Positions 7,149 through 16,639 of a DNA stretch of 64,000 nucleotides are shown here, piece by piece (position 1 is the stretch's first letter; the number at the start of each line of letters is the position of its first letter). The stretch covers positions 218,501 to 282,500 of the forward strand of contig NZ_CP010978.1 of the NCBI RefSeq assembly GCF_000271665.2, written 5' to 3'. The translations under genes were made by a program, and so were the position numbers. This DNA is from Pelosinus fermentans JBW45 (GTDB taxonomy: Bacteria; Bacillota; Negativicutes; DSM-13327). The notes below the pieces were generated by a model. The model searched no databases, was not told the origin of the DNA, and was given only the letters and a program-made list of their open reading frames with translations.

Positions 7149-8531
7149 GTGTTAGGATTAATGATCGCACTATTCTTTTTATGTATTTGCGGCTATGCTA
7201 TTTTTAAAAAATACAAGGCCCAAACCGTATTATTAACAGGTGGTTTTGCCATGATGTCAGTTGCTATCCTTTTAGGGATGGGAGATATTCTGCCTGCTAA
7301 GAATTCTACAGGAAGTCCTTGGTTTGACATGTTTCAGTTTGTTGCAGTTCTTGCATCGAAGCGAGCTGCAGAGATCGGTATGTTAATTATGGTCGTTACT
7401 GGTTTTGCCCGCTACATGGACAAAATTGGTGCCAGCAGAGTGCTTGTTCATATTTGCATCAAGCCTCTACAGACGCTGCGGTCACCTTATATCGTAATGG
7501 CCCTTGGTTTTATTATTGGTCAATGTTTACACCTTTTTATTGCCAGCGCTTCAGGTTTGGGTGTATTGCTAATGGTAACGATGTATCCGATTCTAATTAG
7601 CCTTGGGATCAGTCGAAATGGTGCTACTGCTGTAATTGGAACCACTTCTGCCATTGACCTGGGCCCTAGCTCAGGCAATACGGTACTGGCAGCAAAAACG
7701 GCTGGACTGCAAACCGTAGATTATTTCGTCACGTATCAGCTTCCAGTGGCTGTAGTTGTTATATTGGCCATTGCAGTAACTCATTATTTTGTACAGCGTT
7801 GGTTTGATAAAAAACATGAAGGTGGATTGGCTGCAGGGGTACCTCGGGAAGAGGAAAATACAGATCCTAAAAGTGATGCAGAGCCTCTTCGTCCTATGTG
7901 GTATGTATTTTTGCCAATTTTCCCAATGATATTAATTTTAGCATTTGGTTTCTTTAAGTTTCGAGGAATACACTTAGATATTATCCCTTGTATGTTTGTC
8001 AGTTTGTTTATTTCTATGGTTTGTGAAGCTCTCACGACACGGAATGTGAAGAAAGTTTTTGCAAGTATTCAAACGTTTTTTGATGGAATGGGAAGTCAGT
8101 TTGCTACGGTTATTACATTAATTGTTGCTGGTGAGACACTAGCCCAAGGACTCACCGCTTTGGGTGCTATTGATACGCTAATCAATGTCACACAGTCAAC
8201 AGGTTCTGGCAAAACAGTCATGGTCTTGGTTATGAGTGGGATTATTGCTGTTAGCTGCATTGTTATGGGATCGGGTAATGCCCCTTTCTTTGCTTTTTCC
8301 GCTTTTGCGCCCCAAGTTGCGAAGAAATTAGGCTTTGATGCTGTGAATTTGCTTTTGCCCATGCAGCTTACTTCCAGCCTGGCTCGCGGCATATCACCCA
8401 TTACAGCGGTAATTGTAGCGGTATGCGGTATTTCGGGAGCATCACCTTTTGAAGTAGTCAAGCGAACTGCTATTCCAATGGCAGTGGGATTGCTTACCAC
8501 CCAGATTATGACTTATATCCTATTTGGGTAA
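7149..8531 (+). CDS. DcuC-family carboxylate transporter (paralog 1)
   Basis: Inner-membrane secondary carrier, 460 aa, with about 12 hydrophobic segments. The family (C4-dicarboxylate uptake C) moves succinate, fumarate or related anions. Family-like segments are ILPAKNSTGSPWFDMFQ (about 48-65), GFARYMDKIGAS, the SGLGVLLMVTMYPILISLG loop and MGSGNAPFFAFSAFAP near residue 375. A GTG start is set by AGGAGG 8 nt upstream. It is followed after 51 nt by an M20 peptidase, suggesting uptake of a compound that the peptidase hydrolyses. Three relatives lie at 29498, 49240 and 57533. Substrate unknown. Confidence 0.88.
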   Translation: MLGLMIALFFLCICGYAIFKKYKAQTVLLTGGFAMMSVAILLGMGDILPAKNSTGSPWFDMFQFVAVLASKRAAEIGMLIMVVTGFARYMDKIGASRVLVHICIKPLQTLRSPYIVMALGFIIGQCLHLFIASASGLGVLLMVTMYPILISLGISRNGATAVIGTTSAIDLGPSSGNTVLAAKTAGLQTVDYFVTYQLPVAVVVILAIAVTHYFVQRWFDKKHEGGLAAGVPREEENTDPKSDAEPLRPMWYVFLPIFPMILILAFGFFKFRGIHLDIIPCMFVSLFISMVCEALTTRNVKKVFASIQTFFDGMGSQFATVITLIVAGETLAQGLTALGAIDTLINVTQSTGSGKTVMVLVMSGIIAVSCIVMGSGNAPFFAFSAFAPQVAKKLGFDAVNLLLPMQLTSSLARGISPITAVIVAVCGISGASPFEVVKRTAIPMAVGLLTTQIMTYILFG

Positions 8532-8582
8532 CGAATCAAGCAGAAGGTAGAACGTATACTGAATCGAAGGTAGGGACGAAAA

Positions 8583-9704
8583 ATGGAACAGTTTGATTTG
8601 GAACGGTATTTAAAAGAGCTAGAGTATCTTGTGAATATAGACAGCGGCTCAAAGAGTCTAGAAGGTGTTACGCAAATCGGGGAGTATTTTTCAGAGAAAT
8701 TTAAAGCTTCAGGCTGGAATATAAAAAAATATGACATCGCGCCTGAGATTGCTCCTTGTATTGAAATTACCAATTGTGATACAGACCGCTTTGATATTTT
8801 ACTTTTAGGACATATGGATACGGTATTTCCAGCGGGGACGGTTAAGGAAAGACCTTTTACAATAAAAGATGGAAGAGCATATGGTCCCGGTGTCATCGAT
8901 ATGAAATCCGGCTTGTTATCTGCCTATTATGCTTTAGATGGGCTGAAAGACCAAGAACTTTCGATATGTTTACTACTCAATAGCGAAGAGGAAATGGGGT
9001 CAAGGCGGGTTCGTCCTTGGTTAGAGAAGGCAGCTGGTAAAAGTCGCTACGTATTTGTTTTGGAAGCTGCGAGAGAAAATGGTGATTTAGTCTTAACGCG
9101 AAAAGGGCTTGGGCGATATACTTTCGAGTTTCATGGTGTAGCGGCTCATGCTGGCGTTGCCCCACAAAATGGTATAAGTGCCATTTTGGAACTAGGGTAC
9201 TGGATTGTTGCTCTTCACGGCCTGAATGATTTTTCTTCGGGCCTTACACTCAATGTAGGCACAGTTGTAGGCGGCACAACCGCGAATGTGGTAGCCGACT
9301 ACGCTAAAGCAGAATTGGATTTTAGGGTTGCTGATATGAGTCAGGTACATATCATAGAGCAAAAAATTGATTCATTACTGGCACATGCAAAAACATCTGG
9401 TGTTAAGATCGGTGTCTCTGGCGGTATGACTCGGCCACCGTTGAACCCTACGGAGGAAACCCAAAAGATTTGCAGATTGGCAGAAACCATTGGCAAAGAG
9501 TTAGATATTAGGGTTCATTGGGCTAAGACTGGCGGCGGTTCGGATGGAAATTTTTCGGCAGCCTTAGGTGTGCCGACTATTGATGGATTAGGACCAGTCG
9601 GCGGCAATGCTCATGGCATTCACGAGTATATGCTTATCGAGTCTGTAGAGCCGCGGATTCATTTGCTAAGGAGAATGATTAAAGAGGCAGTACAAGTAAA
9701 ATAA
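8583..9704 (+). CDS. M20 family metallopeptidase (glutamate carboxypeptidase-like)
   Basis: Predicted cytoplasmic di-zinc hydrolase of 373 aa, resembling CPG2/ArgE-type enzymes that cleave N-acyl or peptide bonds next to a carboxylate. Visible active-site parts: GHMDTV (His77, Asp79), VIDMK (Asp106, bridging), the Glu pair at 135-136 (general base), and a late NAHGIHEYM His. The central dimerisation lid contains GVAAHAGVAP (about 195). There is no signal peptide. It is the second gene of the DcuC operon, so an imported N-acyl amino acid or small peptide is a plausible substrate. Confidence 0.88.
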   Translation: MEQFDLERYLKELEYLVNIDSGSKSLEGVTQIGEYFSEKFKASGWNIKKYDIAPEIAPCIEITNCDTDRFDILLLGHMDTVFPAGTVKERPFTIKDGRAYGPGVIDMKSGLLSAYYALDGLKDQELSICLLLNSEEEMGSRRVRPWLEKAAGKSRYVFVLEAARENGDLVLTRKGLGRYTFEFHGVAAHAGVAPQNGISAILELGYWIVALHGLNDFSSGLTLNVGTVVGGTTANVVADYAKAELDFRVADMSQVHIIEQKIDSLLAHAKTSGVKIGVSGGMTRPPLNPTEETQKICRLAETIGKELDIRVHWAKTGGGSDGNFSAALGVPTIDGLGPVGGNAHGIHEYMLIESVEPRIHLLRRMIKEAVQVK

Positions 9705-11499: not shown

Positions 11500-12855
11500 G
11501 TGAACATAGCAAAGAGCGAAACCAGTGAATTATTGGCAGCTCTAAAAATTACCTTGCCAATTATTCAAGAACTTCTTCCATTGGATATTATGTTTGGTAT
11601 TACTGACCAGGAAAAATTTATTTACTATTTGCCTGGCAAAGAGATTGATATAAAACTTCCGCTAGGAGCGCCTATCCCGCAAAGTGCAGGGTTTAGGAAA
11701 GTGCTAGAAACAGGGCAAGCTACCAGCATCAATGTGGAGAAGGAAGCATATGGGGTAGCTTTTAAGTCAAATTCTCTCCCGATAAAGGATGAAGATGGAA
11801 AGATTACTGGTGTGATTACAATGGGGATCAGTCTGTTAAATCAAGAGATTATTAGCCATGCAGCTCAAGCCTTGGATGGATTTTTTTCATTAGATAATGA
11901 ATGGCATTTTTCATATGTAAATCGAGTAGCTTTGGAATATGCTTCCAGATACTCATCTCTAGATTTAGGGCAGCAGCTGATCGGTAAATACATATGGGAT
12001 ATTGTCCCCAAAACCCCGATGTTCTTTGAGAATATAACGAAAGTTAAAAAGACAAGAACTCCTATGCACTTTGAAATTTTTTCGCAATTCGGACAACAGT
12101 GGATGAGTGTGAATATCTATCCTTTATCGGATGGAGGATTAACCGTTTATTTTCGTAATATCGATGAACAAAAAAGAATTCAGCGGGAAATGGCTCGACT
12201 CGAGCAACTACACTTAGTAGGGGAAATGGCAGCCGGTATATCACACGAAATCAGAAATCCTATGACCACGGTTCGCGGGTATTTGCAAATGCTTAAGGTC
12301 AAGGAACGGCTCCTTGACTTTAGTGAGCAGTTTGATTTGATGATTGAAGAATTAGATCGGGCCAATCAAATTATTTCAGAGTTTTTATCTTTGGCCAACA
12401 ATAAAATCGTTGTGCGCACACCCATCAATTTGGTAGAACTTATTAAAGCAATATTACCTTTGATTGAATCGGATGCCCGCCTTTTAGGGCAAAATGTAAA
12501 AACGCAGCTGCAAAAAATTCCAATGGCTTTGTTAGATCCAAGAGAAATACGTCAGTTAATATTGAATCTGGTACGTAATGCCTTTGAATCAATGGAATCA
12601 GGAGGGACTCTAACAATTCGAATTTATAAAAATAATGATAAGATCGTATTTGCCGTACAAGATGAGGGATCCGGAATTCCAGAGGAGATACGATCCAAAC
12701 TAGGAACTCCATTTCTTACTACAAAGGAAAAGGGAACTGGCCTTGGTCTTGCAACGTGTTATAGTATTGCAAAAAGGCATGATGCTACGATTGACTTCAC
12801 GACGGGTGATTCAGGAACTACTTTTTATTTGTATATAAAAGAGTGTGAGGGATAA
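11500..12855 (+). CDS. Orphan sensor histidine kinase
   Basis: 451 aa, apparently cytoplasmic as no TM segment is seen. Residues about 1-115 form a PAS/GAF-like input module ([34 protein letters not shown]). A second PAS lies at about 120-225. HisKA has phospho-acceptor His249 in GISHEIRNP. HATPase_c has an N-box ([11 protein letters not shown]), DEGSGIPEE and GTGLGLATC. The architecture resembles the soluble KinA/KinE-like kinases that feed the sporulation phosphorelay, but that role is inferred only. No response regulator is adjacent. GTG start with GAGGAG upstream. Confidence 0.9.
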
Positions 12856-12907
12856 AGACAGAAGCAAGCTGCTAGGACTTAGCATTAGTTAGTGTTGTAA
12901 TAAAAAT

Positions 12908-12950
12908 GCCCCCAATCGTAGTTTTTTTATTCTGCGACTGGGGGTACTTT
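12908..12950. terminator. Terminator after the histidine kinase
   Basis: CCCCCAATCGTAG pairs with CTGCGACTGGGGG with one mismatch and one wobble; a T-rich tail follows. Confidence 0.75.
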
Positions 12951-13012
12951 TTATTCATTTCCAATTTATTGGTTCAGCTTACGATTAGGTAGACGTTTTT
13001 TTATTTTCAGCC

Positions 13013-13075
13013 CATTTAAAAAAGAATCTTAAAAGAATTTATATAAGTAGAAGTCGATATACAGGAAAAAAATAA
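13013..13075 (+). pseudogene. Remnant of a sigma factor 3' end (copy E1)
   Basis: One frame reads HLKKNLKRIYISRSRYTGKK then stop, matching the C-terminus of the sigma factor at 14784 (RLKKTLERMYISESQYTGQNN). Upstream the frame decays into stops. Conservation at the protein level, with changed codons, says it was once a real sigma gene end rather than a fresh DNA copy. It stands directly in the leader of the first PL9 gene. Confidence 0.75.
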
Positions 13076-13108
13076 TTGATAAAAAAAGTTCCTTGGCTAT
13101 ATCGATTT
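13051..13108 (+). repeat. Leader inverted repeat of copy E1
   Basis: AAGTCGATATA (13051-13061) pairs with TATATCGATTT (13098-13108), 11 bp with one wobble. The equivalent repeats of E2 and E3 pair with different bases at two positions, keeping complementarity. It ends 26 nt before the PL9 start codon. Confidence 0.6.
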
Positions 13109-13134
13109 CAAAATAATAGAAAGGTTGTGTAAAA

Positions 13135-14133
13135 ATGTCTACTTATAATGTAACGACTTATACCCAATTAAAAAGTGCGGTGGCTTCTGCCACATCTGGT
13201 GACACAATTTATATTGGAGCGTCCATTACTTGTTCTGCGCAAATCGTAATGAGTACCAGCGGTGTAACCCTAAAGGCAGCAACGGGAGTAACACCTGTTT
13301 TAGATTTTTCCGCTATCGGAAGCATTAACTCAGGTTCAAAGGGGATTGGGATCTATGTAACTGGTAGCAATAATACCATTTATGGTCTTATTATTCAAAA
13401 TGCCGGGGATAATGGAATAAAGATTGAAGGAGCTAGTAATACGGTGCAAAACTGCATCTTTCGCTATAACGGAGATACTGGTCTACAGATATCCAAGTCT
13501 ACAGCTAAAAATAATACAATAAAGTATTGTGATTCCTATAGAAATTGTGATACAGCAACAAGCGGCGGAAATGCGGATGGTTTTGCATGCAAATTGAGTG
13601 CGGGCACAGGCAATCAATTCATCGGATGCCGAGGTTTTCAAAATTCTGACGATGGTTGGGATAGCTACGATATGAATAATGATGTTACATATACAGATTG
13701 CATTACTTGGCATAACGGAGACGCCAGTATAACTACTTATGCAGGCAACGGTAATGGGTTCAAACTTGGGTCTAAAGGCGGTACTGGAAAACGAACTATG
13801 ACTCGCTGCATCGCTTGGGATACTCAATATAATGGGAAAAAAGGGTTTGACCAAAACAATGGTATTGGTGTTACAACATTAACAAATTGTCTATCCTTTG
13901 ACAATGTTATAGGCTACCAGTTAGACGACGCATCTAGCCTTGTCATGAAGAATTGTCGAGAGTTCAATTGCGACAGTGATGAGCTACCATCCGGTGTTTC
14001 TGTTACGAAGATTACTGATACAACAAAACAAGCTTCCATTCGGAGTGTGGTCAAGACTGCATGCAACAAAATTTTATCCAATTGCGAAAATAATATTATT
14101 ACAGGAGCGATCACTTTAGATATATGGGACTAA
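13135..14133 (+). CDS. PL9-type pectate lyase-like right-handed beta-helix protein (1)
   Basis: 332 aa composed mainly of parallel beta-helix coils with N-ladders (NTIYGLIIQNAGDNGIKIEG and similar). Catalytic residues known from family PL9 (Pel9A) appear conserved: the calcium-site aspartates as Asp148 (NADGF), Asp172, Asp173 and Asp176 (DDGWD), and the Lys base as Lys210 (GNGFKLG). The 24-residue gap between the first two Asp sites equals that of Pel9A. It would cleave pectate by beta-elimination. There is no signal peptide: the protein starts MSTYNVTTYTQLKSAV, the first beta-helix cap. The ribosome site (AAAGG) is weak compared with the other locus genes. Confidence 0.8.
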   Translation: MSTYNVTTYTQLKSAVASATSGDTIYIGASITCSAQIVMSTSGVTLKAATGVTPVLDFSAIGSINSGSKGIGIYVTGSNNTIYGLIIQNAGDNGIKIEGASNTVQNCIFRYNGDTGLQISKSTAKNNTIKYCDSYRNCDTATSGGNADGFACKLSAGTGNQFIGCRGFQNSDDGWDSYDMNNDVTYTDCITWHNGDASITTYAGNGNGFKLGSKGGTGKRTMTRCIAWDTQYNGKKGFDQNNGIGVTTLTNCLSFDNVIGYQLDDASSLVMKNCREFNCDSDELPSGVSVTKITDTTKQASIRSVVKTACNKILSNCENNIITGAITLDIWD

Positions 14134-14168
14134 TATCCAGAAAATGTTTATTACTGGTGTTTGCAACT

Positions 14169-14200
14169 TGCCTCTGGCTCCGGCTGGGGGCTTTTATTTG
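14169..14200 (+). terminator. Probable terminator after the first PL9 gene
   Basis: GCCTCTGGCT and GGCTGGGGGC can pair with several G-U wobbles, followed by a T-rich stretch. The arms ATGAATC/GATTCAT further on (about 14252-14291) are a second weak hairpin. Confidence 0.4.
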
Positions 14201-14414
14201 TTTATAAGACCAAGCTTACAAGAATATGTTTAAATCATGTCTAAGAGGCTAATGAATCGATAGCAACAGTCAATGTAGCTTTTTGATTCATGAAATCACC
14301 TTTTGGTGCGAAGTGAATTGAAATAAAAGGGAAAAATGGGATTTTATTTTATATAATGATAATGTTGTAAAATTGTTTAAACCTTAAAAAGGAGGAATGG
14401 ATAATAAAAATTTG

Positions 14415-14540
14415 AACTGATACCGAATTTGGGTTGCCATAAATACTGGAAAAAAATATTTTCGTAATCATGGATTGATCCGTTTAAAAAAGCGTCTTTA
14501 AACAATGTATATAAGTAAAAGCCGATATACGCGAAACATA
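14415..14540 (+). pseudogene. Remnant of a sigma factor 3' end (copy E2)
   Basis: From 14463 one frame reads FRNHGLIRLKKRL, stop, TMYISKSRYTRN, against LRNRGLARLKKTLERMYISESQYTGQN in the intact sigma gene. Weaker similarity extends back to AACTGATACCG near 14415. An in-frame TAA at 14499 and upstream shifts show it is dead. It leads into the 66-aa ORF. Confidence 0.75.
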
Positions 14541-14564
14541 AGATTCTTTGATTATATTGGCTTT
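14518..14564 (+). repeat. Leader inverted repeat of copy E2
   Basis: AAAGCCGATATA (14518-14529) and TATATTGGCTTT (14553-14564) make a 12-bp stem with one G-U pair. It ends 34 nt before the start of the 66-aa ORF. Confidence 0.6.
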
Positions 14565-14598
14565 GCAAAAAGCATTAAAAATTTAGGAGGCGATTTAG

Positions 14599-14799
14599 AT
14601 GGTATACAATCAAGATTTACCTAGATACAATGCGGCAGATATCACGGAAAGCTTTAGGGGATGGAAAGAAAAACAAAAGATTGCCACTAATAGTGCAAAT
14701 ATTGCTAAAAATATTAAAATTGCATGCACTATGAATAAAGCGTCTTTTAACGGTATTACGAATAGTAGAATTACAGAAAAAGCATGGGGACAACGTTAG
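14599..14799 (+). CDS. 66-aa protein coupled to the sigma factor gene
   Basis: Unrecognised small basic protein (MVYNQDLPRYNAADITESFR start) with no TM segment. It has a strong AGGAGG ribosome site 8 nt upstream. Its last 16 nt overlap the sigma start, which has no ribosome site of its own, so the sigma factor is probably translated by coupling. Position suggests a partner or modulator of the sigma factor, as small co-encoded proteins of alternative sigma factors can be, but no domain supports this. A truncated counterpart (MRILRN..., 10 codons) follows the same ribosome site after copy E3. Confidence 0.6.
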   Translation: MVYNQDLPRYNAADITESFRGWKEKQKIATNSANIAKNIKIACTMNKASFNGITNSRITEKAWGQR

Positions 14800-15317
14800 A
14801 TTTTGCACCACTAGTGCGTAAATATACTTGGAATAAATCGGAGGATGTAAGAGCAGAAGCATGGTTAGCAGTAGTGGAGGCAACAAAATTATATGATTCA
14901 ACTAAGGGAGTGCCATTTGCTGGTTTTGTAAAAAGCAGAGTCAAATATTCAGTTTGGAATATGCTTAGAAAGCAACATAGACAATGGGAGCATGAAGTGG
15001 ATTTGGAAAGTAACGAAAATAATGAAGAAAACAGTTTAATTGATATATTATCGAGTGGCACAAATGTTTCGGATGAGGTCGAACAGATATTTCTGATGGA
15101 AGAATTACGAGAAGCTATAAATATGTTACCCGAACGTCAGCGTGTTGCTGTAATTAAAACGGTGGTTTGTAACTTTAGCCAAACTGAAACCGCAGCTACA
15201 TTGGGAGTAACGCCACAAGCAATATATAATTTGCGAAATCGTGGGCTAGCCCGTTTAAAAAAGACACTTGAAAGAATGTATATAAGTGAAAGCCAATATA
15301 CAGGACAAAACAATTGA
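14784..15317 (+). CDS. Sigma-70 family RNA polymerase sigma factor
   Basis: 177 aa with region 2 (residues about 18-65; EDVRAEAWLAVVEATKLYD then FVKSRVKYSVWNMLRKQHRQ) and region 4 (about 112-165; LPERQRVAVIKTV, then a helix-turn-helix TETAATLGVTPQAIYNLRNRGL). No region 1 or 3, so it is a small alternative sigma factor. Its size resembles the TcdR/BotR/UviA group that drive clostridial toxin and bacteriocin genes; that is an analogy only. The 3' end (from about 15250) is the source-like member of a three-copy repeat that continues into the leader of the second PL9 gene. Confidence 0.85.
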   Translation: MGTTLDFAPLVRKYTWNKSEDVRAEAWLAVVEATKLYDSTKGVPFAGFVKSRVKYSVWNMLRKQHRQWEHEVDLESNENNEENSLIDILSSGTNVSDEVEQIFLMEELREAINMLPERQRVAVIKTVVCNFSQTETAATLGVTPQAIYNLRNRGLARLKKTLERMYISESQYTGQNN

Positions 15318-15376
15318 TGAAAGTTACTAGATTATATTGGATTATTGAAAGTTATAAGGAGGTGGCGCTTAGATGC
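15250..15376 (+). repeat. Sigma 3' end plus leader repeat, copy E3
   Basis: Here the repeat is half coding: it covers the last 22 codons of the sigma gene and 59 nt of leader. CCAATATA (15293-15300) pairs with TATATTGG (15333-15340). The right arm context GATTATATTGG is shared with E2, and the AAGGAGGTGGCGCTTAGATG ending parallels AGGAGGCGATTTAGATG of E2. The ATG here opens only a 10-codon ORF. Confidence 0.7.
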
Positions 15377-15454
15377 GTATATTAAGAAATGTTAAGAAAT
15401 GTTAAGAAACAGTTTCTTTTTTAACTTAAATAAAAAACTTGAGGAGTGTTAATT

Positions 15455-16639
15455 ATGAGTGATTTATATGTATCTACTTCAGGAAGTGCCAGTAATTCAG
15501 GCACTGTGAGCAGCCCAACTACCCTTACCGCGGCAATTACAAAGGTAACTGCAGGTGGAACGATTTACATGATGTCAGGAACCTATACTTATGATTCTCA
15601 ACTAACGATTGAACGCGGCAATGATGGAGCATCAGGCAGCTACAAAAGTATTATGCCATACAACTCTGGAGCAGTAATTTTAGACTTTTCGTCCCAAACT
15701 TATGGAGATCCTTCCAGCGTAACCAATCCTAGAGGACTGCAAATAAACGGAAATTATTGGCATATTAAAGGTCTTGCTGTGAAAGGGGCTGCTGACAATG
15801 GTATTTATATCGGCGGAAGCTATAACAAAATAGAACTTTGTGAAACGTATGAGAATAGAGATTCAGGATTGCAGTTAGGGCGGTATATCTCCACCGCTGC
15901 AGAAAGTGATTGGCCAGCCAATAATGAAATCTTAAATTGTACTTCTCATGACAATTCTGACCCTGATAATGGGGAAGATGCAGATGGTTTTGCCTGCAAG
16001 CTCACTACCGGTGAAGGCAATGTATTTAGAGGGTGCATTTCCTATAACAATGTTGATGATGGCTGGGATTTATATACAAAATCCGCCACGGGTGCTATTG
16101 GTGCTGTAACAATAGAAGGTTGTGTAGCCTTTAATAACGGCGTAACTTCTGATGGTACATCTACAGCAAATAGCGATGGTAATGGATTTAAATTAGGCGG
16201 AGATAAAATATCTGTTAACCATATTGTACAAAATTGTATTGCCTTCAACAATAAAAAACATGGATTTACGTATAACAGTAATCCTGGCTCTATCGCGTTA
16301 ACAAATTGTACAAGTTATAATAATGGAACTACGTCAGGAAGTAACTTTGCGTTTGATAAAGGCACACACGTATTTACTAATTTATTGTCCTACATAGCCA
16401 GTTCGAGTGACAAGACAAGCGGCCCTGATGTAAATAATTCAAATGTCTGGTGGAAAAACAAAAAAAGTACAAATGCAAATGGATTAGTTTGCAGTGATGC
16501 AGATTTTGTTAGCCTCACTCCAACTGTAACCAGAAACTCAGATGGTTCTATCAACTTTGGAACCTTCTTACAACTTGCTACTGATAGTGATCTCATCGGC
16601 GCAGGTACCCCAAGTGGCACTAATATTGGAGCCAGATAA
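15455..16639 (+). CDS. PL9-type pectate lyase-like right-handed beta-helix protein (2)
   Basis: 394 aa, related to the protein at 13135. The N-terminus (MSDLYVSTSGSASNSGTVSSP) is the usual DUF1565-like first coil of the beta-helix. Calcium-site aspartates are Asp177 (DADGF), Asp201, Asp202 and Asp205 (DDGWD), again 24 residues apart, and the Lys base is Lys246 (GNGFKLG). No signal peptide is present. ATG 15455 is preceded by GAGGAG at 9 nt; a GTG at 15446 lacks a ribosome site. It follows the sigma gene, with repeat E3 between them, and is closed by a strong terminator. Confidence 0.82.
   Translation: MSDLYVSTSGSASNSGTVSSPTTLTAAITKVTAGGTIYMMSGTYTYDSQLTIERGNDGASGSYKSIMPYNSGAVILDFSSQTYGDPSSVTNPRGLQINGNYWHIKGLAVKGAADNGIYIGGSYNKIELCETYENRDSGLQLGRYISTAAESDWPANNEILNCTSHDNSDPDNGEDADGFACKLTTGEGNVFRGCISYNNVDDGWDLYTKSATGAIGAVTIEGCVAFNNGVTSDGTSTANSDGNGFKLGGDKISVNHIVQNCIAFNNKKHGFTYNSNPGSIALTNCTSYNNGTTSGSNFAFDKGTHVFTNLLSYIASSSDKTSGPDVNNSNVWWKNKKSTNANGLVCSDADFVSLTPTVTRNSDGSINFGTFLQLATDSDLIGAGTPSGTNIGAR

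Follow-up and report, generated by a model that had tools for sequence, protein, structure and literature searches.

A putative sigma-factor promoter joined to a hairpin leader is repeated before many genes of Pelosinus fermentans and other Negativicutes

The question raised by this locus is why the 3′ end of a sigma-factor gene occurs three times, each time running into a similar leader in front of a different gene. The window, that is, the whole stretch of 64,000 nucleotides (nt) analyzed here, represents positions 218,501 to 282,500 of contig NZ_CP010978.1 of Pelosinus fermentans JBW45, and it contains a direct repeat in three copies, at 12990-13062 (63%), 14458-14530 (100%, used as the reference) and 15229-15301 (79%). 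A 22-nt core pattern, which was derived from the three window copies themselves, occurred three times at up to 3 mismatches and was absent from 100 dinucleotide-preserving shuffles. Thus, the three copies of a sigma-gene 3′ end with a leader, first noticed in a reading of the letters alone (the original prediction), do exist. That reading had also suggested that the retained part could be a promoter or an RNA element under the control of the sigma factor, and it would appear to be both: in the best-supported reading, the upstream half is a promoter and the hairpin that follows is a 5′ leader. We consider it probable, from comparison of the sequences, that each repeat is a compact expression signal, composed of a promoter of an extracytoplasmic function (ECF)-like sigma factor and a 5′ hairpin leader, which has been duplicated before many genes.

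The element is composed of GTTTAA, 16 nt and AATGTRTATnAGT, followed by a hairpin of 11 bp in which letters of the loop are conserved, and a Shine-Dalgarno sequence then leads to the start codon. In the genome of the strain itself, a single 5.38-Mb contig (C1), at least 5 further copies were found outside the window (Table 1), and the element core there precedes an RCC1-repeat gene, a collar-domain gene, a LamG-type gene that is cut short and a gene for 114 amino acids (aa). The LamG-type target at L039:3230-3547 (C1 about 978,230-978,550) ends after 106 aa, and genes that read as IS3-type-transposase-like lie downstream. A covariance-model search with the leaders, as suggested along with the original prediction, was run using a model built first from seven copies and then a hairpin-only model built from 51 copies. 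The element was present in 20 of 60 genomes at E ≤1, three of them being weak (E 0.03-0.1), and the hairpin-only model detected it at E 0.001 in 21 of the 380 genomes examined from the class Negativicutes, the own genome being included in both counts. The hairpin-only model gave 72 copies across the 51 stretches searched, with some genome-scan matches falling outside those stretches, and the copy number reached up to 13 per genome. Related motifs occur in Pelosinus, Lucifera butyrica, Propionispora, Massilibacillus and some unclassified metagenome-assembled genomes (MAGs), in 16 stretches.

With respect to the upstream half, two boxes were found at an offset that was fixed by the hairpin alone. 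Among the 69 copies from genomes bearing the sigma factor, GTTTAA (up to 1 mismatch) was present 35 nt 5′ of the hairpin in 61, compared with 0 to 5 at 24 shifted offsets; AATGTRTAT (up to 2 mismatches) was present at its set offset in 66, and both boxes were in place in 60. In the 53 copies read as non-coding, the box positions carried 0.95-2.0 bits and the spacer positions 0.08-0.75 bits. Conserved boxes on either side of an unconserved 16-nt spacer are the pattern of a promoter. A scan of the own genome with the boxes only, at 3 mismatches, gave no excess (15+8 matches vs 17+13 in the reversed control), so that hairpin-less promoters cannot be listed that way, and one hit with 1 mismatch reads as part of a coding region. 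A promoter of the SigD/FliA type was also considered and rejected. The letters GCCGATAT in the first arm of the hairpin resemble the −10 region of sigma-D promoters, but the appropriately spaced TAAA is missing, and these letters change in concert with those of the second arm. As further observations, a dyad GTAGT/ACTAC was seen by eye in the spacer of Pelosinus-type copies, and such copies (e.g., L040 and L039 at about 1870-1920) also have a conserved box TGTACGGATAAAG and a dyad GAATGARAA...TTTGCATTC 5′ of the promoter boxes. A copy of the promoter motif that lacks the hairpin stands before another gene in a Massilibacillus MAG (L154, about 809-848).

The downstream half is a hairpin consisting of a helix of 11 pairs (P1) and an inner helix of 5 pairs (P2). 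When 51 copies were aligned with MAFFT, 92.4% of the cells were paired, compared with at most 45.7% in slid controls; 7 pairs showed changes on both sides, a number reached by 2 of 500 shuffles, and the covariation score was above all 500 shuffles. The complementary arms with compensatory differences that had been pointed out for the three window leaders were therefore borne out in the larger set. The cells with G-U pairs greatly outnumbered those with A-C (124 vs 16), indicating that it is the sense-strand RNA that folds. If transcription starts 6 to 8 nt past the −10 region, the mRNA would begin at the base of P1. In the window copy beside the intact sigma gene, the inner helix is interrupted. 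An alternative hairpin, GTATAT/ATATAC, overlaps P1, and the letters TGTA and TACA hardly vary.

The sigma factor that would read this promoter has a paralogue in the same genome (C1:858073), which is 46% identical to it and is followed by genes for DUF1659, DUF2922 and YvrJ. TIGR02937 (ECF-type sigma70 superfamily) was matched at 55.8 and 50.1 bits against a curated cut-off of 42.9, and the general sigma70-ECF superfamily was the only NCBIfam model over its cut-off among the matches listed. In Pfam, the paralogue scored above the cut-off for region 4 and below it for region 2. Its last codons contain the same boxes, with a short gap to the start of DUF1659. Such a motif at the end of the sigma gene was found in 23 of the 29 loci read, comprising 20 by exact search, L042 with a spacer of 17, and L051 and L068 by eye; five distant loci were without it, and one was cut at a contig end. 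The motif also occurs at or behind earlier sigma stops. In L059 and L063, the sigma gene ends early, in different codons, and the motif is found beyond the gene with its spacing unchanged; in L051, the sigma stop codon is overlapped by the −35 box, the −10 box being outside the gene; and in six of the hairpin copies that follow sigma-like sequence, the stop of the sigma frame falls between the −35 and −10 boxes. In 17 embedded cases, picked by a pattern containing these codons and hence biased in this respect, the codons were always CGT TTA, although GC-rich members use TTA for 0 of 16 and 1 of 19 leucines. The retention of the boxes at or behind earlier sigma stops, together with the use of TTA, argues against the upstream half being a leftover of coding sequence.

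The coupling between the element and the sigma factor was evident at the level of genomes. With the paralogue as the query and a threshold of E 1e-20, the sigma factor was detected in 61 of the 380 Negativicutes genomes, and it was present in 18 of the 21 genomes with the element; another of these (G043) has a window-type sigma gene with an internal stop. In G026 and G161, no sigma factor was detected by this query at E 1e-20, and the best match to the window sigma in G026 had 23% identity (E 7.8e-11). The 3 copies in these two genomes all retain the hairpin but have neither box, in contrast to the 60 of 69 copies with both boxes in sigma-bearing genomes. In G026 (L119 and L168), TGTACGGATAAA directly abuts the hairpin, as if another promoter had taken over. 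In the neighborhood of each copy, the coupling was looser than had been expected, as sigma-like sequence was found within 700 nt upstream of 15 of 72 copies by search, including 3 that match in the letters of the motif tail only, and reading also gave 15, with two short window remnants and L246 added. The original prediction had tied the leaders to a sigma or beta-helix gene; this tie failed locally, with only 4 beta-helix proteins among 66 predicted products, and held for the sigma factor at the level of the genome. Outside the class, a relaxed motif pattern matched one (L269) of 30 DUF1659 loci, for which the upstream DNA was read in 28 and two had short flanks; the motif before DUF1659 is not general there. 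A sigma-like gene lies upstream in 6 of the 30 (L258, L261, L264, L269, L271 and L283). Some of these six genes end in a variant box such as CTATAAGTGAAGGCGG, and they possibly represent the same arrangement with other promoter letters.

The genes behind the element were examined by taking, for each copy, the best-scored open reading frame (ORF) of at least 60 aa, judged by start codon, Shine-Dalgarno-like letters, length and nearness. Such an ORF began within 40 nt of the end of the hairpin model in 61 of 72 copies and at 60-110 nt in 5, and none was found in 6. An N-terminal hydrophobic stretch was detected in none of the 66 products by a crude test (12-residue mean above 2.0). Pfam at E 0.001 assigned Laminin_G_3 to 20 products, fn3 to 14, Collar to 10, CE2_N to 6, Gp53-like_C to 5, SPRY to 3, arabinofuranosidase to 2, and GH53 and RCC1 to 1 each, within a total of 23 families, and no toxin family was among these matches. 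Products with different N-terminal domains (e.g., L102:8843-9958 and L108:8862-10010) have a C-terminal motif in common, like SSKEYLSFEKIISFEVIPL, which is perhaps an attachment or sorting domain.

Of the 72 copies, 20, in 9 of 21 genomes, had holin-like, Amidase_3 or GH25 genes on the same strand no more than 4 kb upstream; at least 2 kb of upstream sequence was covered for 51 copies. No lysis gene was found on the antisense strand of the same upstream windows or on either strand of ten 4-kb windows of the window itself, and the lysis families were confirmed for the proteins scanned. Furthermore, two promoter copies without the hairpin were located before lysis genes. The one at C1:5297197 in the own genome (2 mismatches) precedes a small holin/amidase gene set encoding proteins of 82 aa, 118 aa (holin-like, with a weak PHROG match at E 0.0009), 193 aa (Amidase_3) and 222 aa, which stands among genes that read as host metabolism; the other, in G013 (L109:8011), precedes a gene like the scanned holin.

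Several points weigh against a sigma-controlled promoter with a hairpin leader. The comparison with genomes in which no sigma factor was detected is limited to 3 copies in two genomes, and for G161 the absence comes from one search at E 1e-20. Of the 61 genomes with the sigma factor, 43 have no hairpin element at E 0.001, and G013 has several intact elements, yet its sigma factor (46% identical to the paralogue) is without the 3′-end motif. In sigma-bearing genomes, 9 of the 69 copies lack a box at the set offset; three of the nine have it shifted by one base, and two, L112:15596 in G020 and L241:1819 in G323, lack both boxes although their genes look intact. For the hairpin, one measure of covariation (further pair types) was not above the shuffles (99 of 500), and single-sequence folds are weak in several copies, with z-values from −3.24 to −0.02 for 7 leaders and of −3.24, −1.66 and −0.02 for the three window copies, so that the case for the hairpin is one of comparison and not of energy. 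For the link to lysis, the 14 queries were taken from these same loci, the 20 lysis-linked copies share about 15 lysis sets, and the surroundings of the window island yielded no lysis gene, the lysis set of the own genome being elsewhere. Finally, the copies share descent, and the counts are not independent.

With these points taken into account, the following mechanism may be proposed. The sigma family of the window sigma and the paralogue of the DUF1659 operon would bind and read a promoter composed of the −35 box GTTTAA, a 16-nt spacer and the −10 region AATGTRTATnAGT. The hairpin, lying at the predicted transcription start or a few nt from it, would form the 5′ end of the mRNA, where it may protect the transcript or be bound, and the start codon would come about 20-40 nt later. 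As most of the sigma genes read appear to end in the promoter of the next gene, the two would constitute a sigma-plus-target unit, and the promoter and hairpin would have been copied, in part of the Negativicutes, before genes for phage-tail-, lectin- and glycosidase-like proteins without signal peptides. Because lysis genes are often upstream and the two hairpin-less promoters precede holin/amidase sets, the sigma factor probably switches on phage-derived surface or fibre proteins together with the means of their release. As for the system as a whole, we put forward, at a likelihood a little short of even, that an undescribed sigma regulon of Negativicutes, mostly of apparent spore formers, is represented, in which the last codons of the sigma gene double as a target promoter that was multiplied with the hairpin as a cassette commanding tail, lectin and glycosidase genes, as well as holin and endolysin genes, for an export that does not depend on signal peptides.

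Two other versions of this reading differ in the role assigned to the regulon. The element may be a device of phage conversion, that is, a prophage promoter for cargo placed after the lysis module, and the scattered copies would be leftovers of prophage ends. One element array in G013 does end a prophage with terminase, portal, head, tape-measure and tail genes, beside two holin-amidase sets, and the upstream holin or endolysin genes and the tail-fibre and collar products fit as well; however, the neighbors of the window island and of L039, L040 and L287 read as host genes, and the paralogous sigma gene sits in the DUF1659-DUF2922-YvrJ operon, which is not of phage, leaving this version possible but unlikely. 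At the end of that prophage, holin-amidase-coiled-coil sets are duplicated (L109:3052-4648 and 8065-9630), each 5′ of an element. Somewhat less probable again is a sporulation regulon, in which a mother-cell sigma factor would direct lectin, fibre and glycosidase proteins to coat the spore and amidases for the lysis of the mother cell. In the first sample, with the element called at E 0.001 and kinship ignored, SigE/K-family genes were found in 16 of 17 genomes with the element vs 17 of 43 without it, although sporulation and the element may share phylogeny only, and the G013 array at a prophage end favors phage over spore. DUF1659, which is part of the paralogue operon, is described as clustering with sporulation domains in an excerpt of PMC2955703. 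Two genomes with the element, G024 and G161, are exceptions in having no strong SigF/SigG match; each has only one copy, the boxes having 1 and 2 mismatches in one genome and both being lost in the other. One product is weakly similar to BclA_C (E 0.008; 16.5 bits, below the cut-off of 38). As a separate observation, sigK appears to be split in G000 (C1:2226609-2227028), G002, G004, G006, G010 and G037, where only the N-terminal half gives a match at the locus; in the latter five, the contig also carries a C-terminal piece at a distance of about 3 to 20 kb, as if skin-like elements had interrupted the gene.

The remaining alternatives take the element to be something other than a sigma-controlled signal. 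A leader that senses a ligand or protein, like a riboswitch, behind boxes of a merely common promoter would explain why the letters of the loop and flanks (GGAAACACACA, TTCCTTGGCTATGT) are conserved beyond the needs of pairing and, it would seem, of a plain stabilizing hairpin. However, no terminator-like or Shine-Dalgarno-masking alternative was apparent in the 7 folded leaders, the window leaders matched no Rfam 15 family (window 12800-15500, E up to 5; the sole match in that region was a snoRNA at 27.7 bits, below the gathering score of 60), and the boxes track a special sigma factor at the genome level, which makes such a leader improbable. Much less probable is a recombination site that folds as a single strand and moves gene cassettes like the attC of integrons; tandem element-gene arrays (G034 and G005) and an island common to another family are compatible with it, but the element mostly lies 20-40 nt before a start codon and the excess of G-U over A-C cells speaks for sense-strand RNA. 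That the repeats are functionless debris of sigma 3′ ends is hardly credible, since, even with two window copies in dead sigma genes and three non-coding copies still weakly matching the sigma tail, the conserved boxes around an unconserved spacer, the compensatory pairs and the fixed position before genes would be left without a reason.

A sigma-controlled promoter with a hairpin leader may be compared with systems already described. The TcdR-family (group V) sigma factors of clostridia, including TcdR with TcdE, UviA and BotR, are connected with holin-assisted release in excerpts of PMC4885068 and PMC9527704. The similarities are a small sigma factor with regions 2 and 4 only (for the window sigma, by Pfam), a sigma gene immediately 5′ of the predicted target promoter in the same direction (23 of 29 loci here; a feature given in the excerpt of PMC4885068) and, again as far as these excerpts go, extracellular-type products without signal peptides, nearby holin or endolysin genes and a suspected phage origin. 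This likeness to the TcdR/UviA/BotR subgroup is one of logic and gene layout. In contrast to that family, the predicted promoter here lies in or at the end of the sigma coding sequence and is followed by a conserved RNA hairpin, there are up to 13 copies per genome, the products are fibre-, lectin- or glycosidase-like, and the hosts are Negativicutes. Xpf is connected with the late operon of PBSX, a single prophage. It is listed as a factor of the defective prophage PBSX of Bacillus subtilis in a table entry of PMC10141391 and, by that description, is similar in being a sigma factor that has regions 2 and 4 and is associated with phage-like genes. The promoters here differ from that case in being dispersed, several of them outside a complete prophage as far as read, and in having the hairpin leader. 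The leaders of aprE and ompA have 5′-terminal stabilizing hairpins on single genes. The present hairpin, likewise predicted at or near the very 5′ end and followed by a Shine-Dalgarno sequence, differs in that one hairpin with conserved loop letters is common to unrelated genes and is coupled to one promoter type. In the portions of the open-licence literature on these sigma, DUF and tail-protein topics that were covered, no published description of this system was found. Compared with the known sigma/holin systems, the predicted embedded promoter and the hairpin leader are the new features.

Returning to the window, the history of its three copies can be outlined (Table 1). The remnant at copy 2 (14460-14531) aligns with sigma residues 150-173 at 67% with one internal stop (E 0.016), and that at copy 1 (13010-13069) with residues 156-175 at 65% (E 0.62), these E-values being weak when taken alone. 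The claim that the remnants came from real sigma genes gained support from elsewhere, since six copies in G020 stand downstream of a whole or broken sigma gene and a syntenic island with the same gene order is present in another family (G010:C190). The amino-acid identities between the latter and the window are 89% for the first beta-helix protein, 46% for the 66-aa ORF, 77% for the sigma factor, which is a 168-aa ORF with its last codons shifted by one base in G010, and 88% for the second beta-helix protein. The island was likely acquired or shared by transfer between families. Copies 1 and 2 are best accounted for as units in which the sigma gene would have decayed and the signal been kept, copy 3 being the intact unit; entry of cassettes at the sigma 3′ end, the other route suggested originally, may be the way in which copies arose. 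The 66-aa ORF is similar to the N-terminal part of a tail-fibre-like family (E 1e-9 to 8e-7 against three fragments) and looks truncated. Between copy 3 and its beta-helix gene, a mini-ORF at 15374-15411 contains short direct repeats (TTAAGAAATG) and is perhaps what is left of an earlier first target gene that was lost. A window-like row of genes for an arabinofuranosidase, two beta-helix proteins and a sigma factor is present in G323 (L241:4692-7620).

Table 1. Positions of the element copies and associated genes in the window and of the further copies in the same genome.
Feature	Position	Strand	Remarks
Copy 1, −35-like box ATTTAA	13014..13019	+	One mismatch to GTTTAA; inside the dead sigma remnant
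Copy 1, −10-like box AATTTATAT	13036..13044	+	Predicted transcription start about 13045-13050
Copy 1, leader hairpin	13051..13108	+	P1 arms 13051-13061 / 13098-13108; P2 within
Copy 1, target gene	13135..14133	+	332-aa right-handed beta-helix protein without an N-terminal hydrophobic stretch
Copy 2, −35-like box GTTTAA	14482..14487	+	Inside the dead sigma remnant
Copy 2, −10-like box AATGTATAT	14504..14512	+	
Copy 2, leader hairpin	14519..14563	+	P1 arms 14519-14529 / 14553-14563; short loop
66-aa ORF 3′ of copy 2	14599..14799	+	16-nt overlap with the sigma start
Intact ECF-like sigma factor, 177 aa	14784..15317	+	Regions 2 and 4; Sigma70_r2 and Sigma70_r4_2 above Pfam cut-offs
Copy 3, −35-like box GTTTAA	15253..15258	+	Within sigma codons R-L-K
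Copy 3, −10-like box AATGTATAT	15275..15283	+	Within sigma codons around M-Y-I
Copy 3, leader hairpin	15290..15343	+	P1 arms 15290-15300 (sigma codons) / 15333-15343 (past the sigma stop)
Gene 3′ of copy 3	15455..16639	+	394-aa beta-helix protein; 110 nt from the end of the hairpin model
Further copies in the own genome	C1:976946, 978132, 1278476, 5302239, 5309725		Last one decayed

This study provides an apparently uncharacterized sigma family and its companion operon of DUF1659, DUF2922 and YvrJ with a concrete predicted promoter and a candidate regulon. It would also represent an example of a promoter that is written into the coding end of a sigma gene and was then multiplied along with an RNA leader. 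Furthermore, the link of phage-tail-like proteins without signal peptides to lysis genes bears on the manner in which such proteins may exit the cell.

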